Shown here one piece after another: positions 1,032-9,106 of a stretch of DNA of 13,375 nucleotides. The notes beneath the pieces are model-generated. The model had not been told where the DNA came from and did not search any database. It was given only the letters and a program-made list of their open reading frames with translations. The DNA is from Rhodanobacteraceae bacterium (lineage in GTDB: Bacteria > Pseudomonadota > Gammaproteobacteria > Xanthomonadales > Rhodanobacteraceae). The first letter of the stretch is position 1, and each line of letters opens with the position of its first letter. The translations under genes and the position numbers were made by a program. The stretch is from assembly GCA_012270595.1 (NCBI GenBank), contig JAAXIA010000175.1:1-13375 (forward strand), in the 5' to 3' direction.

Positions 1032-1838
1032 TTGAAGATCACGAAAAAAAAACTGTGTGCCGGTCTACTTCCCGTTCTCATCATAGGCCTTGCTACCCAG
1101 ACCAGGGCTGCGTCAGGGAATAGTCGGTGGACGGGTTCGGGAGAACTGGGCTTTTCCTCGACAACCGGTAATGCCCATACGCAGAACCTGGACGCCAAAC
1201 TTGGCCTGAGTCAGGAAACGGCCCAGTGGAGAAACAGTTTTTTTCTGGTTGTGACACGCGCCACAAATCAGGAGAAAGTTATCAATCCCGATGGCAGCAC
1301 CGATAAAAAATACAACACTACAGCCAACCGTTACGTCCTTGGCACATCCGAGGGGTACAAGCTTGATCCGCGCAGCTATGTGGTCAGTGCGCTCCGTTAC
1401 GCACATGACGATTTTGGCTCTAACCGCTGGCAAGCGGTCTTTTCCGTCGGCTACGGCTATACTGCACTTAAAACACAGCGCAACGGGTTATCATTTGAAG
1501 TTGGTCCCGGTTTCAAGCAGTACAAACCCGCCGACACCAAGGTCAAGGTAGACGGCCAGAGTGTGCTTTACAAACAAAGACGCCAGGCCGAGGCCGTGAT
1601 ACGCGGCTTGCTCCACTACAGCCACCGGTTAAATGCCAATACCACACTCGAAAACACTTTTCTGACGGAAGCAGGCTCCAAAGACAAGTATTTTCAAAAT
1701 GATGCCAGTCTCGCCGTCAGCGTGACCCGGAAGCTGCTACTGAAGGTAGGTTATGAGGTACGTCACCACAGTTTTGTGTTGCCTGGTGCCAAGAAAACCG
1801 ACACCTTGACAACCACCAATCTCGCCTATAAATTCTAG
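1032..1838 (+). CDS. DUF481 (YdiY-like) outer-membrane beta-barrel protein, TTG start
   Basis: The 268-residue product has a basic N-terminus (KITKKK), a hydrophobic core (residues 8-21) and a plausible signal peptidase I site after TRA at residue 26. The mature part is rich in alternating beta strands such as WTGSGELGFSSTTGNAHTQN, RYVLGTSEGYKLDPRSYVVS and VSVTRKLLLKVGYEVRHHSF, and ends in NLAYKF. A terminal phenylalanine is the usual outer-membrane insertion signal. GELGFSSTTGN is typical of the DUF481 family ('putative salt-induced outer membrane protein'). The frame is open from 939 but contains no ATG or GTG before TTG at 1032, which sits directly before the signal peptide, so TTG is chosen although no good Shine-Dalgarno sequence precedes it. 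Nine adenines at 1044-1052 lie just inside the gene. The molecular function of the family is not established; a small channel or structural role is a guess. Confidence 0.85.
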   Translation: MKITKKKLCAGLLPVLIIGLATQTRAASGNSRWTGSGELGFSSTTGNAHTQNLDAKLGLSQETAQWRNSFFLVVTRATNQEKVINPDGSTDKKYNTTANRYVLGTSEGYKLDPRSYVVSALRYAHDDFGSNRWQAVFSVGYGYTALKTQRNGLSFEVGPGFKQYKPADTKVKVDGQSVLYKQRRQAEAVIRGLLHYSHRLNANTTLENTFLTEAGSKDKYFQNDASLAVSVTRKLLLKVGYEVRHHSFVLPGAKKTDTLTTTNLAYKF

Positions 1839-4391: not shown

Positions 4392-5129
4392 GTGGACGAG
4401 GCTTCCCTAAGCTACTACGATGAAGTCATGTATCGCCAAGGGACATGGCTGTTTATCTGGCAGGCACTGCGCGTGCTTGCAGCGTTTGCTGCAGTAGCGG
4501 CAATTATCAGACAGCTAGAAAATTCCCTGGCCATCGCTGCTGTTAAAGGCTGGCCAATATCCGGCGCGATCATTGATTTTTTTAGCTACTTCACAATTCT
4601 TTCCAACACCGCAGCGGCCATTACCTTGATTCTGAGTGCGATCATCGCCTGGTCAGGATGCAGAATCAACCCACGCTGGCTTGCTACACTTCTGCTATGT
4701 GTCACCACTTACATGTGGACCACTGGCATCGTCTATAACCTGCTACTGCGCGGCACTGTCTCATCACCAGATGCCTTAGTACCATGGGCAAACAACATAA
4801 AGCATGTTGCCATACCTGTTTTCTTTCTTTTTGATGCGGTTTTTGCACCCTTGAAGCGCCGTTTGCCATGGCGAAAAGTCTACATGGTCATCCTTTTTCC
4901 CATCATATGGCTCGGCTATACCATGATCCGTGGGGCGCTAGTGACGAATTACCGCAATGGTGAAACATGGTGGTATCCCTACTTCTTTTTGAACCCACAC
5001 CTTCAACGGTGGGGCTATGGTAGTGTGGCGCTGTATGTGATCGCCATTTCACTGCTGATCGCTTTACTTGCAATCATCGGCATTGGGCTAACACACTGGC
5101 GTGGAAGCGTGAAGACAGGGCACAGATAA
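4392..5129 (+). CDS. Pr6Pr-family integral membrane protein
   Basis: A 245-residue polytopic membrane protein with about six hydrophobic spans, roughly residues 18-38, 57-85, 96-118, 135-152, 160-180 and 212-236. Family-like features are the polar TM2 region FFSYFTILSN, GIVYNLLLRGT after the third span, NNIKHVAIPVFFLFDAVF with an intramembrane His, WLGYTMIRGALV, WYPYFFLNP and the late GYGSVALYVI. These match the Pr6Pr (DUF-type) family related to FAR-17a/AIG1 and TIGR02206-like proteins; the function is not established. The frame opens after a stop at 4365. GTG at 4392 is the first possible start, while ATG at 4428 (MYRQGTWLFIW) is an equally plausible alternative just before the first span. 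Neither has a strong ribosome-binding site. It is followed after about 80 bp by the propeller gene on the same strand. Confidence 0.8.
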   Translation: MDEASLSYYDEVMYRQGTWLFIWQALRVLAAFAAVAAIIRQLENSLAIAAVKGWPISGAIIDFFSYFTILSNTAAAITLILSAIIAWSGCRINPRWLATLLLCVTTYMWTTGIVYNLLLRGTVSSPDALVPWANNIKHVAIPVFFLFDAVFAPLKRRLPWRKVYMVILFPIIWLGYTMIRGALVTNYRNGETWWYPYFFLNPHLQRWGYGSVALYVIAISLLIALLAIIGIGLTHWRGSVKTGHR

Positions 5130-5210
5130 AACACGCAGCCCAATATACCGCATTATCCGTTAAGGGAACCCTGCTCGAAATGTTCCAGTTTTATCAAGAA
5201 GGTTATGTGC

Positions 5211-6176
5211 ATGGACATTGCAACGTATAGAAAGTGCATAGCAGGGTTTGTTTTCCTTGCCACTTCAACATTGCTTTCTGGGGTGATGTCATTTCCGGCC
5301 ATGGTGACGGTCAGGCCATACCGTCACCACCTCCTATCCAGGCACCAAGGAAAAACCCTTGCCTGGGGTGCCAATGGTTTTTCTGAAGGTCGTTTACCCT
5401 TCGCTGTGCGTGACGGTGTAAGCGCCATTTCTTCCGGCTGGTCGCATTCCCTTGCGCTAAGGCATGGCAAGGTCATTGCCTGGGGATATGACGCCTACGG
5501 CCAAACCGACGTGCCGAAAGAGGCGCGTTCTGGCGTGAGTGCCATTTCTGCTGGCAGATATTATTCCATGGTCCTGAAACACGGCAAAGTCATCGCCTGG
5601 GGAGATAACGGTGCAGCTCAGGCAAAGGTGCCACGGCAGGCTAAATCCGGGGTGAGCGCTATTTCTGCCGGCTGGGTCCATGCTCTGGCATTAAAGCATG
5701 GCCGCGTGATCGCTTGGGGATATAACGGCTCAGGACAGGTTACGGTACCCCGCGTGGCCAAATCCGGGGTGAGCGCTATCGCCGCTGGCTATGCGCATTC
5801 TCTGGCCTTGAAGCATGGAAGGGTGATTGCCTGGGGAAATGATTATTCGGGTCAAACAGATGTGCCCGATGCAGCCCTGTCTGGAGTAGACGCCATTGCA
5901 GCCGGTGATTATCACAGTCTGGCGCTTAAAAACGGCAAAGTTTATGCTTGGGGTTTCAACAAATATGGCCAGTGTGATGTTCCCAGAGAAGCACAATCGG
6001 GTGTGGTCGCTATTGCCGCTGGATATGGACACTCGTTAGCGCTTAAAAAAAACGGTCAGGTGATTGCCTGGGGAGACCATTCCTACAGGCAGACAAAGGT
6101 GCCGCACGCGGCCAGATCAGGAATAATGGCTATCGCTGCCGATGGAAATCATTCTTTGGCTTTGAAAAAACCATGA
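5211..6176 (+). CDS. Exported seven-repeat RCC1 / BLIP-II-like beta-propeller protein
   Basis: From the chosen start the protein has 321 residues: an N-terminal hydrophobic segment (CIAGFVFLATSTLLSGVMSF) acting as a signal peptide or anchor, then seven consecutive repeats of 39-40 residues and nothing more. Each repeat follows the pattern GKVIAWG, a variable turn, GQ..VP..A.SGV.AI.AG, then HSLALKH. Seven short repeats predict a closed seven-bladed propeller. Repeat length, register (starting at the AWG strand and ending at the LALK strand) and the aromatic residues in the AG-x-x-H loops closely resemble Streptomyces BLIP-II, a secreted beta-lactamase inhibitor; ordinary RCC1 repeats are longer. 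ATG at 5211 has AGAAGG at an 8 nt spacing; the in-frame ATG at 5205 is too close to it. The target is unknown. BLIP-II-like folds also occur in proteins without known inhibitory activity, so the role is inferred only. Confidence 0.85.
   Translation: MDIATYRKCIAGFVFLATSTLLSGVMSFPAMVTVRPYRHHLLSRHQGKTLAWGANGFSEGRLPFAVRDGVSAISSGWSHSLALRHGKVIAWGYDAYGQTDVPKEARSGVSAISAGRYYSMVLKHGKVIAWGDNGAAQAKVPRQAKSGVSAISAGWVHALALKHGRVIAWGYNGSGQVTVPRVAKSGVSAIAAGYAHSLALKHGRVIAWGNDYSGQTDVPDAALSGVDAIAAGDYHSLALKNGKVYAWGFNKYGQCDVPREAQSGVVAIAAGYGHSLALKKNGQVIAWGDHSYRQTKVPHAARSGIMAIAADGNHSLALKKP
5349..6173 (+). repeat. Seven tandem ~117 bp coding repeats of the propeller
   Basis: Repeat units begin near 5349, 5466, 5583, 5700, 5817, 5934 and 6054, a period of 117 bp for the first five and 120 bp for the last two because of one added codon each. 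The units are diverged at the DNA level but share the GC-T-GGGG (AWG) core and the SGV.AI block. They are protein repeats, not a CRISPR or satellite array, and could support unequal recombination that changes blade number. Confidence 0.9.
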
Positions 6177-8410: not shown

Positions 8411-9016
8411 ACCGGAAAACCCACACGGCAGACGATCAATAGATCATCTCACGCTTATTGGCGGTATCTTTACTCACTGTGATTTCCATCGCGCTGACCT
8501 ATGCTTTTCAGGTGAAAATAGAAAACAAGACAGGAAAAATCATGATGGTATCGTGCAAATCAACGGGCAACTCTATCTACGTTTAGCACTGGAGCCAGTG
8601 CCTTCAGAAAACTGTGATGGAAATCATTTCTTTAGTTGTAATGGGTCTGATAATTACGACATATATTTCAGAAAATGGGATCTAAGCAACTTTGACAAAA
8701 CTTGGCGGTGACGAGACAGTAGAGGTTATTTTTTTAGGTTAAAAAACAGAAAAATAACATCATGGACAGCTCTCTTTTACTGAGATCTCATAAGGGGTGG
8801 TAGATTCTTACAGAAAGCACATACATCGTTTTTTTCTCCAGAAAAAAACTTGCAATAGGGATTATCTGAAAAAGGATCACGATGAAAAATGGCCTTAAAG
8901 CACCTTAAAGCACTAGATAATAAAACAGCAACTGTATGGATAAATAAGGAACCCTGAAAACGCAGTGCTCCCGTTGGCAACGCATAGATAATAGCGCATA
9001 TGGAAAAAATGGATTC
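8411..9016. other. Gene-poor, largely AT-rich region between the reductase and the gyrB terminator
   Basis: No intact gene is convincing here. It holds the frameshifted small exported frame at 8458-8708, an AT-rich inverted repeat (GTTATTTTT at 8725-8733 and AAAAATAAC at 8750-8758), and a 10 bp tandem duplication CCTTAAAGCA at 8893-8902 and 8903-8912. A minus-strand frame at 8777-8980 starts only with TTG and lies beyond the gyrB terminator; I do not call it. Homopolymer runs and base composition differ visibly from the flanking housekeeping genes, which suggests decayed or foreign DNA. Confidence 0.5.
8458..8708 (+). pseudogene. Small exported protein, apparently split by a frameshift
   Basis: One frame (TTG at 8458, open since a stop at 8440) encodes a signal-peptide-like start, LLAVSLLTVISIALTYAFQV, followed by KIENKTGK, and then soon stops at 8584-8586. 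The frame one base back is open through the same point and encodes a sensible polar continuation: NHDGIVQINGQLYLRLALEP, then two Cys in ENCDGNHFFSCNG, and finishes DLSNFDKTWR with TGA at 8706-8708. Adding one A to the five-A run at 8535-8539 would join both into a protein of about 84 residues. This looks like one gene broken by a homopolymer deletion, either real or a sequencing error. No good ribosome-binding site precedes the TTG, and I recognise no family. Confidence 0.4.
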
Positions 9017-9044
9017 AAAAAAAGGCGCTCAAGTAGCGAGCGCC
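9017..9044 (-). terminator. Intrinsic (rho-independent) terminator of gyrB
   Basis: Read on the minus strand, GGCGCTC and GAGCGCC form a perfect 7 bp GC-rich stem around a 7 nt loop (GCTACTT), followed directly by seven T residues (the A run at 9017-9023 on the plus strand). It begins about 62 bp after the gyrB stop codon and ends the replication-gene transcription unit. There is no T tract on the plus-strand side, so it acts only in the gyrB direction. Confidence 0.92.
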
Positions 9045-9106
9045 GACTTTGAAGCAGAATGATGCGATATCATACTGCCTTGGCTGTCTTCCCATCCGGT
9101 TGTTTT

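Follow-up and report, generated by a model that had tools for sequence, protein, structure and literature searches.

A stand-alone, probably exported seven-bladed RCC1/BLIP-II-type propeller in a reduced-looking member of Rhodanobacteraceae

A Gene for a Seven-Bladed Propeller

The window analysed here is the whole of contig JAAXIA010000175.1 (13,375 nucleotides) of a Rhodanobacteraceae bacterium, from a 213-contig assembly of 1.45 Mb (GCA_012270595.1; 85.8% complete, 0.32% contamination). Its forward strand carries an open reading frame (ORF), 5205-6176, which is uninterrupted by stops and encodes 323 amino acids (aa) counting from the first ATG. The product consists of a hydrophobic N-terminus followed by seven short tandem repeats of the RCC1/BLIP-II type. 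The ATG at position 5211, the start chosen in the first-pass annotation of the sequence (321 aa), looks preferable to the one at 5205 since the Shine-Dalgarno-like AAGAAGG sits 8 nt ahead of it, as against only 2 nt ahead of ATG 5205. The features of the locus are listed in Table 1.

Table 1. Coordinates of the propeller gene, its parts and its upstream neighbour; residues are numbered from ATG 5205.
Feature	Position	Strand	Remarks
Gene for seven-bladed RCC1/BLIP-II-type propeller	5211..6176	+	321 aa from ATG 5211; 323 aa from ATG 5205
Shine-Dalgarno-like AAGAAGG	5196..5202	+	putative, read in the sequence; 8 nt before ATG 5211
N-terminal hydrophobic export signal (or anchor) and basic linker	5211..5333	+	residues 3-43; hydropathy, disordered in model
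Blade 1	5355..5471	+	residues 51-89; repeat parse, model, blade HMM
Blade 2	5472..5588	+	residues 90-128; repeat parse, model, blade HMM
Blade 3	5589..5705	+	residues 129-167; repeat parse, model, blade HMM
Blade 4	5706..5822	+	residues 168-206; repeat parse, model, blade HMM
Blade 5	5823..5939	+	residues 207-245; repeat parse, model, blade HMM
Blade 6	5940..6059	+	residues 246-285; repeat parse, model, blade HMM
Blade 7	6060..6173	+	residues 286-323; repeat parse, model, blade HMM
Pr6Pr-family membrane protein, upstream neighbour	4392..5129	+	separated by 81 nt, in which no terminator-like site is listed on the + strand

The seven repeats are 39, 39, 39, 39, 39, 40 and 38 residues long; the first starts at an AWG strand and the last ends at LALK. 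A blade hidden Markov model (HMM) likewise gives seven blades, from residue 51 to the C-terminus at residue 323, and together with the repeat parse it confirms the seven short repeats with this start and this end that had been described in the first-pass annotation. The absence of any other domain, also claimed there, agrees with the Pfam results, as the families above their cut-offs are all of the RCC1 type: PF25390 (E 4.3e-51; 174.8 bits, cut-off 150), PF13540 (E 2.4e-44; 148.5 bits, cut-off 22) and PF00415 (E 1.1e-13; 51.9 bits, cut-off 21.7). A match to DUF3192 falls under its cut-off. With tandem RCC1-type repeats above curated cut-offs, the protein is a member of the RCC1/BLIP-II propeller superfamily (PF13540, PF00415, PF25390). 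The predicted structure has 21 strands and forms a closed seven-blade ring, and the superposition on BLIP-II that had been asked for bears out the fold at the level of the model (0.9 Å over 270 residues).

The hydrophobic N-terminal stretch noted earlier is present, with a Kyte-Doolittle mean that reaches 1.9 in 15-residue windows starting at residue 11. The predicted local distance difference test (pLDDT) score of the model is below 50 at residues 1-4, 6-29 and 31-43, and inspection by eye found no lipobox in the N-terminus. Judging from the hydrophobic N-terminus, the protein is probably exported via Sec. The only secretion marker found in the genome is the PilQ secretin; no match to FHIPEP, a marker of the type III secretion system (T3SS), or to the VirB4 type (PF03135) was found in the 86%-complete genome, in which Dot/Icm components were not searched.

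The Scaffold of BLIP-II and the Contact Surface

BLIP-II of Streptomyces exfoliatus (PDB 1jtd, 3qhy, 3qi0), described as seven blades of three strands each (PMC6121496), is 52% identical to the propeller and by far its best solved match (E 8e-87 to 5.7e-86, versus 5.3e-16 for the best RCC1 protein); human RCC1 matches with an E of only 2.1e-4. Both proteins are stand-alone propellers of seven three-stranded blades with repeats of about 39 residues, in both the ring begins and closes at the same points, and in both six of the seven AG-x-x-H loops are aromatic. However, the top rank of BLIP-II is unspecific, because it is also the first solved match for four out of four other family members tried (from Verrucomicrobiota, Hadarchaeales, Chloroflexota and Amycolatopsis). 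Relatives are abundant (of 7992 candidates scored, 5592 proteins reach E <= 0.001) and, BLIP-II being on top for others as well, the likeness tells of the fold and not of the target; a best match to BLIP-II has little functional weight within this family. Indeed, RCC1 and BLIP-II are handled as one large, mostly bacterial group in a study of highly repetitive propellers (PMC9218822).

For comparison we used a family set of 214 different proteins, namely the best 120 listed of the 5592 plus the new ones among the best 120 of 1003, which is not a random sample. When this protein is added, 98 of the 215 have seven blades by the blade HMM, and 11 (this one included) consist of exactly seven blades with little else; eight of the 10 others have an organism in the source name, which in all eight is Nonomuraea. 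Such stand-alone seven-bladed proteins are exemplified by two from Nonomuraea (P0284, P0289) and one from an Amycolatopsis metagenome-assembled genome (MAG; L030, blades counted by eye). Bacterial short-repeat RCC1 proteins (PF13540/PF25390) have the same repeat, the same repeat length and the same layout of an N-terminus plus a propeller, but none of those measured (see below) is as basic per blade as this protein with its K-H-G hairpin turns. In a tree of 60 seven-bladed proteins (out of 80 sequences that passed the length filter), BLIP-II and this protein fall within one 15-row group (support 88/90) without resolved branching inside it, on branches of 0.85 and 0.95, the bootstrap being unsettled and this protein flagged for its unusual letter make-up.

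The 22 BLIP-II positions that contact TEM-1 or Bla1 are listed in PMC10817188; with the printed “Tyr19” read as Tyr191, all 22 match the BLIP-II sequence that we used. In the register of the structural superposition, three of them are identical in the propeller (N50, Y208, N304), while the family keeps 3.54 on average (SD 1.60, range 0-7; n = 150, after restricting the 215 proteins, which include this one, to those in which 230 or more positions and 20 or more contacts were aligned). Outside the contacts, identity to BLIP-II is 57%. A rotated register does not rescue the surface, as the other six rotations retain between one and five of the 22. Of the five acidic contacts the propeller retains none, against a family mean of 0.93, and four of the nine aromatic contact positions are still aromatic, which we call average (family mean 3.05). 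A fragment of 130 residues that is 90% identical to BLIP-II, the only close relative of BLIP-II among the relatives listed, retains six of the nine contacts that it covers and provides a partial positive control.

The AG-x-x-H loops carry W, RY, W, Y, DY and Y, exactly as quoted in the first-pass annotation. Six aromatic loops out of seven are somewhat more than the family rate of 0.49, and three proteins out of 67 are as high as this one (binomial 0.055); the count covers those of the 214 proteins with at least six parsed loops, and for this protein and BLIP-II all seven were listed by hand. The epithet “BLIP-II-like” holds for the fold, the seven blades, the repeat length and the loop aromatics but not for the contact surface, which is at the family background. 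The further suggestion of a beta-lactamase ligand, taken in the manner of BLIP-II, is made improbable by the lost contacts, the reversed charge (see below) and the lack of a recognised class A enzyme in the 86%-complete genome of this Gram-negative host. We would describe the protein as like BLIP-II in scaffold and probably in binding through its loop face and, by the contact surface tested, as probably not a BLIP-II-type beta-lactamase inhibitor.

Charge of the Propeller

The propeller is basic where BLIP-II is acidic: its net charge is +16 over 279 residues versus -11 over 268. None of the 113 relatives measured (those of the 214 with at least five regular units) is as basic per blade; in this protein, unit six has one extra residue, which shifts its loop split in the charge analysis by one. 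The excess of positive charge is mainly in the K-H-G-K/R hairpin turns, which, judging from the strand topology, should lie on the face opposite the BLIP-II binding loops.

An argument from this basic face to a ligand is weakened by a control within the genome. The other exported proteins examined, apart from a sphingomyelinase-like one (-0.7), range from +3.5 to +9.0 net charge per 100 aa and the cytosolic proteins from -3.6 to +2.4, with gyrB (-1.8) as acidic as gyrB of relatives. Since most other exported proteins examined are also basic, we take the charge of the propeller to indicate location in the envelope and long residence rather than to prove an anionic ligand. Examples, per 100 aa, are the DUF481 protein of the window (1032-1838, + strand; +6.3), an RlpA-like protein (+9.0) and PilQ (+5.1); a possible adaptation to acidic or anionic surroundings comes to mind for these basic exported proteins.

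Host Lineage, Distribution and Origin

The closest named proteins to gyrB on the contig (76-78%) are those of Fulvimonas, Rhodanobacter, Frateuria and Dyella, the first two of which NCBI taxonomy places in Rhodanobacteraceae, so the gammaproteobacterial host named in the first-pass annotation was right. Within its family, the organism seems to be reduced in genome size and enriched in AT: genomes of 14 congeners measure 2.9-4.2 Mb versus 1.45 Mb (at 86% complete) here, and GC is 0.64-0.73 at five congener loci, as compared to 0.46-0.58 in the genes of the window and about 0.52 in the window overall. We rejected a foreign or contaminating contig, as the core genes are of host type and the propeller gene (GC 0.536; GC at third codon positions, GC3, 0.512) resembles its neighbours in composition.

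None of the 14 congeners matches the propeller at E <= 1e-3, and among the 98 other genomes in the same search, 16 show weaker matches (E no better than 3.4e-14), most of which are in longer frames. When genomes were drawn from the order and a subset of the first-look candidates in each was scored, two out of 398 had a match at E <= 1e-20, one being the propeller's own. The nearer named relatives come from Paenibacillus, Lentisphaerae, an Amycolatopsis MAG and Verrucomicrobia, the further ones from Oxalobacteraceae (44%), Rhodocyclaceae (37%), Pseudomonadales (38%) and another gammaproteobacterial MAG (34%); the contig scan behind them used six exact peptide patterns, and its 42 loci are a sample. 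As other proteobacterial relatives exist, the propeller is not the sole proteobacterial case, yet there is no near one in its own genus.

Relatives also occur on Deinococcus and Chlorohelix plasmids. Nevertheless, a plasmid origin is unsupported: 57 of 72,556 plasmid records match, all below 60%, and the top one, a Candidatus Chlorohelix plasmid with 51.7% over 91%, is no argument for such an origin because it is about as near as the chromosomal relatives. A phage origin is equally unsupported, with eight of 50,697 phage records matching (37% over 71% of the query in the top-ranked one) and two weak loci (22% and 32%) on viral contigs. The patchy distribution, together with the host-type composition, suggests that the gene was acquired by an older horizontal transfer.

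Proposed Role and Alternatives

With moderate confidence, we read the gene product as a stand-alone, probably exported seven-bladed binding propeller, probably horizontally acquired, with a partner more likely at the envelope or surface and probably other than a class A beta-lactamase; the first-pass interpretation as a whole is partly supported. After horizontal gain of the gene, the protein would probably leave the cytosol via Sec and act in the periplasm or at the cell surface as a scaffold that binds but does not catalyse. Its seven blades, by the model, would display the AG-x-x-H and WG-x-N-x-x loops on one aromatic-enriched face, which probably grips a partner protein as BLIP-II does with the same loops, and the opposite, strongly basic K-H-G-K/R face might perhaps tether the propeller to anionic surfaces of the envelope. 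As to the partner, a class A beta-lactamase bound in BLIP-II style is improbable; a protein from the envelope or surface of the cell itself, or of its host, would be more likely.

Several points weigh against this proposal. Binding and partner are deduced from the fold and from BLIP-II, and the aromatic enrichment of the loops is modest and was noticed before being tested. The N-terminus could anchor the protein in the membrane instead of being cleaved off as a signal, and the basic charge may mirror no more than the envelope chemistry of this organism, whose sphingomyelin-phosphodiesterase-like protein, presumably exported, in turn breaks the basic pattern (-0.7 per 100 aa). The missing secretion systems may just be unassembled in a genome that is 86% complete, and the transfer, although most likely, rests on a patchy distribution and not on a resolved tree.

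A passing acquisition without selected function, or an assembly artefact on the contig, is unlikely. The sporadic occurrence and the single assembly available for the lineage would fit it, but the frame is intact and preceded by a Shine-Dalgarno-like site, GC and GC3 are like those of the neighbours, the contig carries core genes of the host family and, where computable, nonsynonymous divergence between the blades is lower than synonymous divergence (dN < dS), a pattern that may predate the transfer.

Binding of a periplasmic serine enzyme of the penicillin-binding protein (PBP) class of the cell itself, be it a DacA/DacC-type carboxypeptidase, a class C-like lipoprotein hydrolase or a PBP, by which cell-wall metabolism would be tuned, we consider rather improbable. 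Suitable enzymes are present in the genome. The sole PF13354 match is a DacA/DacC-type carboxypeptidase; no class A beta-lactamase came up in that search, which covered the 86%-complete genome. A PF00144 match is a class C-like hydrolase (a lipoprotein by eye), for which the best NCBIfam model is class C beta-lactamase at 53.6 bits, far below its 415-bit cut-off; the carboxypeptidase was matched again by PF00144, below cut-off. Three of the four PF00905 matches are in long open frames (PBP transpeptidase domains). Furthermore, a review repeats the proposal that BLIP-II itself acts in cell-wall remodelling in S. exfoliatus (PMC9146315). However, the BLIP-II contact surface is not conserved, the congeners do without the propeller although they are expected to carry these enzymes, and genetic linkage is lacking: the immediate neighbours encode Pr6Pr, Nudix-ThiE and aldo/keto reductase proteins, no contig neighbour points to beta-lactams or cell-wall synthesis, and the linked bla gene that the first-pass annotation had proposed to look for was not recognised on the contig (seven proteins scanned with profiles, gyrB, plus lgt, recF and dnaN by eye). 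The specific case of a reduced Gram-negative bacterium that clamps one of its own PBP-class enzymes in the periplasm by means of a BLIP-II-type propeller is quite improbable; if true, beta-lactamase inhibition by BLIP-II would be one specialised offshoot of an earlier use of the scaffold in regulating the cell wall.

A host-directed protein, e.g., a mimic of eukaryotic-type RCC1 acting on Ran, is decidedly improbable. Legionella offers the precedent of RCC1-repeat effectors that act on Ran, and according to the same source (PMC7157520), PieG, LegG1 and PpgA, which leave the cell by type IV secretion, have two to three RCC1 repeats bearing GQLGLGE/D; they, too, are RCC1-type propellers of a gammaproteobacterium. 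The reduced-looking genome and its sphingomyelin-phosphodiesterase-like gene may suggest a life with eukaryotes. In contrast to those effectors, our protein has seven short repeats without GQLGLGE/D, and the GQLG motif of RCC1 was not found in it. Its repeats are 39 residues long versus the 50 positions of the classical Pfam RCC1 model, human RCC1 matches far less well than BLIP-II, and the hydrophobic N-terminus points to Sec in a genome where the marker searches described above found neither a T3SS nor a VirB4-type protein.

Finally, a functional BLIP-II-like inhibitor of class A beta-lactamases, with the loop face bound beside the active site, is very improbable: the shared fold, the first rank of BLIP-II among solved matches and the aromatic residues in loops and contact positions speak for it, but they stand against background-level contacts, none of them acidic, that no rotated register rescues, a 90%-identical fragment that does keep most of its contacts, the opposite net charge and a PF13354 search of the 86%-complete genome that yielded only the carboxypeptidase.

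The propeller most likely adds one member to a very large family of binding scaffolds in bacteria. As a family member it is ordinary; it is mildly interesting since an apparently reduced lineage keeps a propeller that none of the 14 congeners matches. Small, confidently folded, patchy in distribution and kept by an apparently shrinking genome, it makes a clean case in which to study the role of stand-alone exported RCC1/BLIP-II propellers, and its partner, if found, would bear on the purpose of BLIP-II-type propellers outside Streptomyces. Our literature search, outside which most subscription journals fell, found no paper on RCC1 with Rhodanobacter or on BLIP-II with Gammaproteobacteria.

Neighbouring Genes and Further Observations

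Upstream of the propeller gene lie genes for lgt, the DUF481 protein, hemC, a carboxylesterase and the Pr6Pr membrane protein, and downstream those for a Nudix-ThiE fusion, an aldo/keto reductase, gyrB, recF and dnaN (for lgt, recF and dnaN, the names come from inspecting the translations by eye). The Pr6Pr gene and the propeller gene are possibly co-transcribed. The Pr6Pr protein has a match in only five of the 14 congeners, in all cases a weak one (30-32% identity), and its gene, too, may be a separate acquisition or fast-evolving. PADLOC gave no match, which leaves membership of a defence system unsupported, and no RNA family reached its gathering score in the window.

Elsewhere in the genome, the sphingomyelin-phosphodiesterase-like ORF (contig C51, locus L084, 42-1259, + strand) matches TIGR03395 at E 1.7e-24 and 86.8 bits, below the 248-bit cut-off, and adjoins the class C-like serine hydrolase; it may hint at a reduced lineage that lives with eukaryotes. 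Within the window, about 700 bases between the aldo/keto reductase gene and gyrB (8411-9106) are free of ORFs of at least 80 aa, with GC down to 0.37, and possibly represent a decayed gene.
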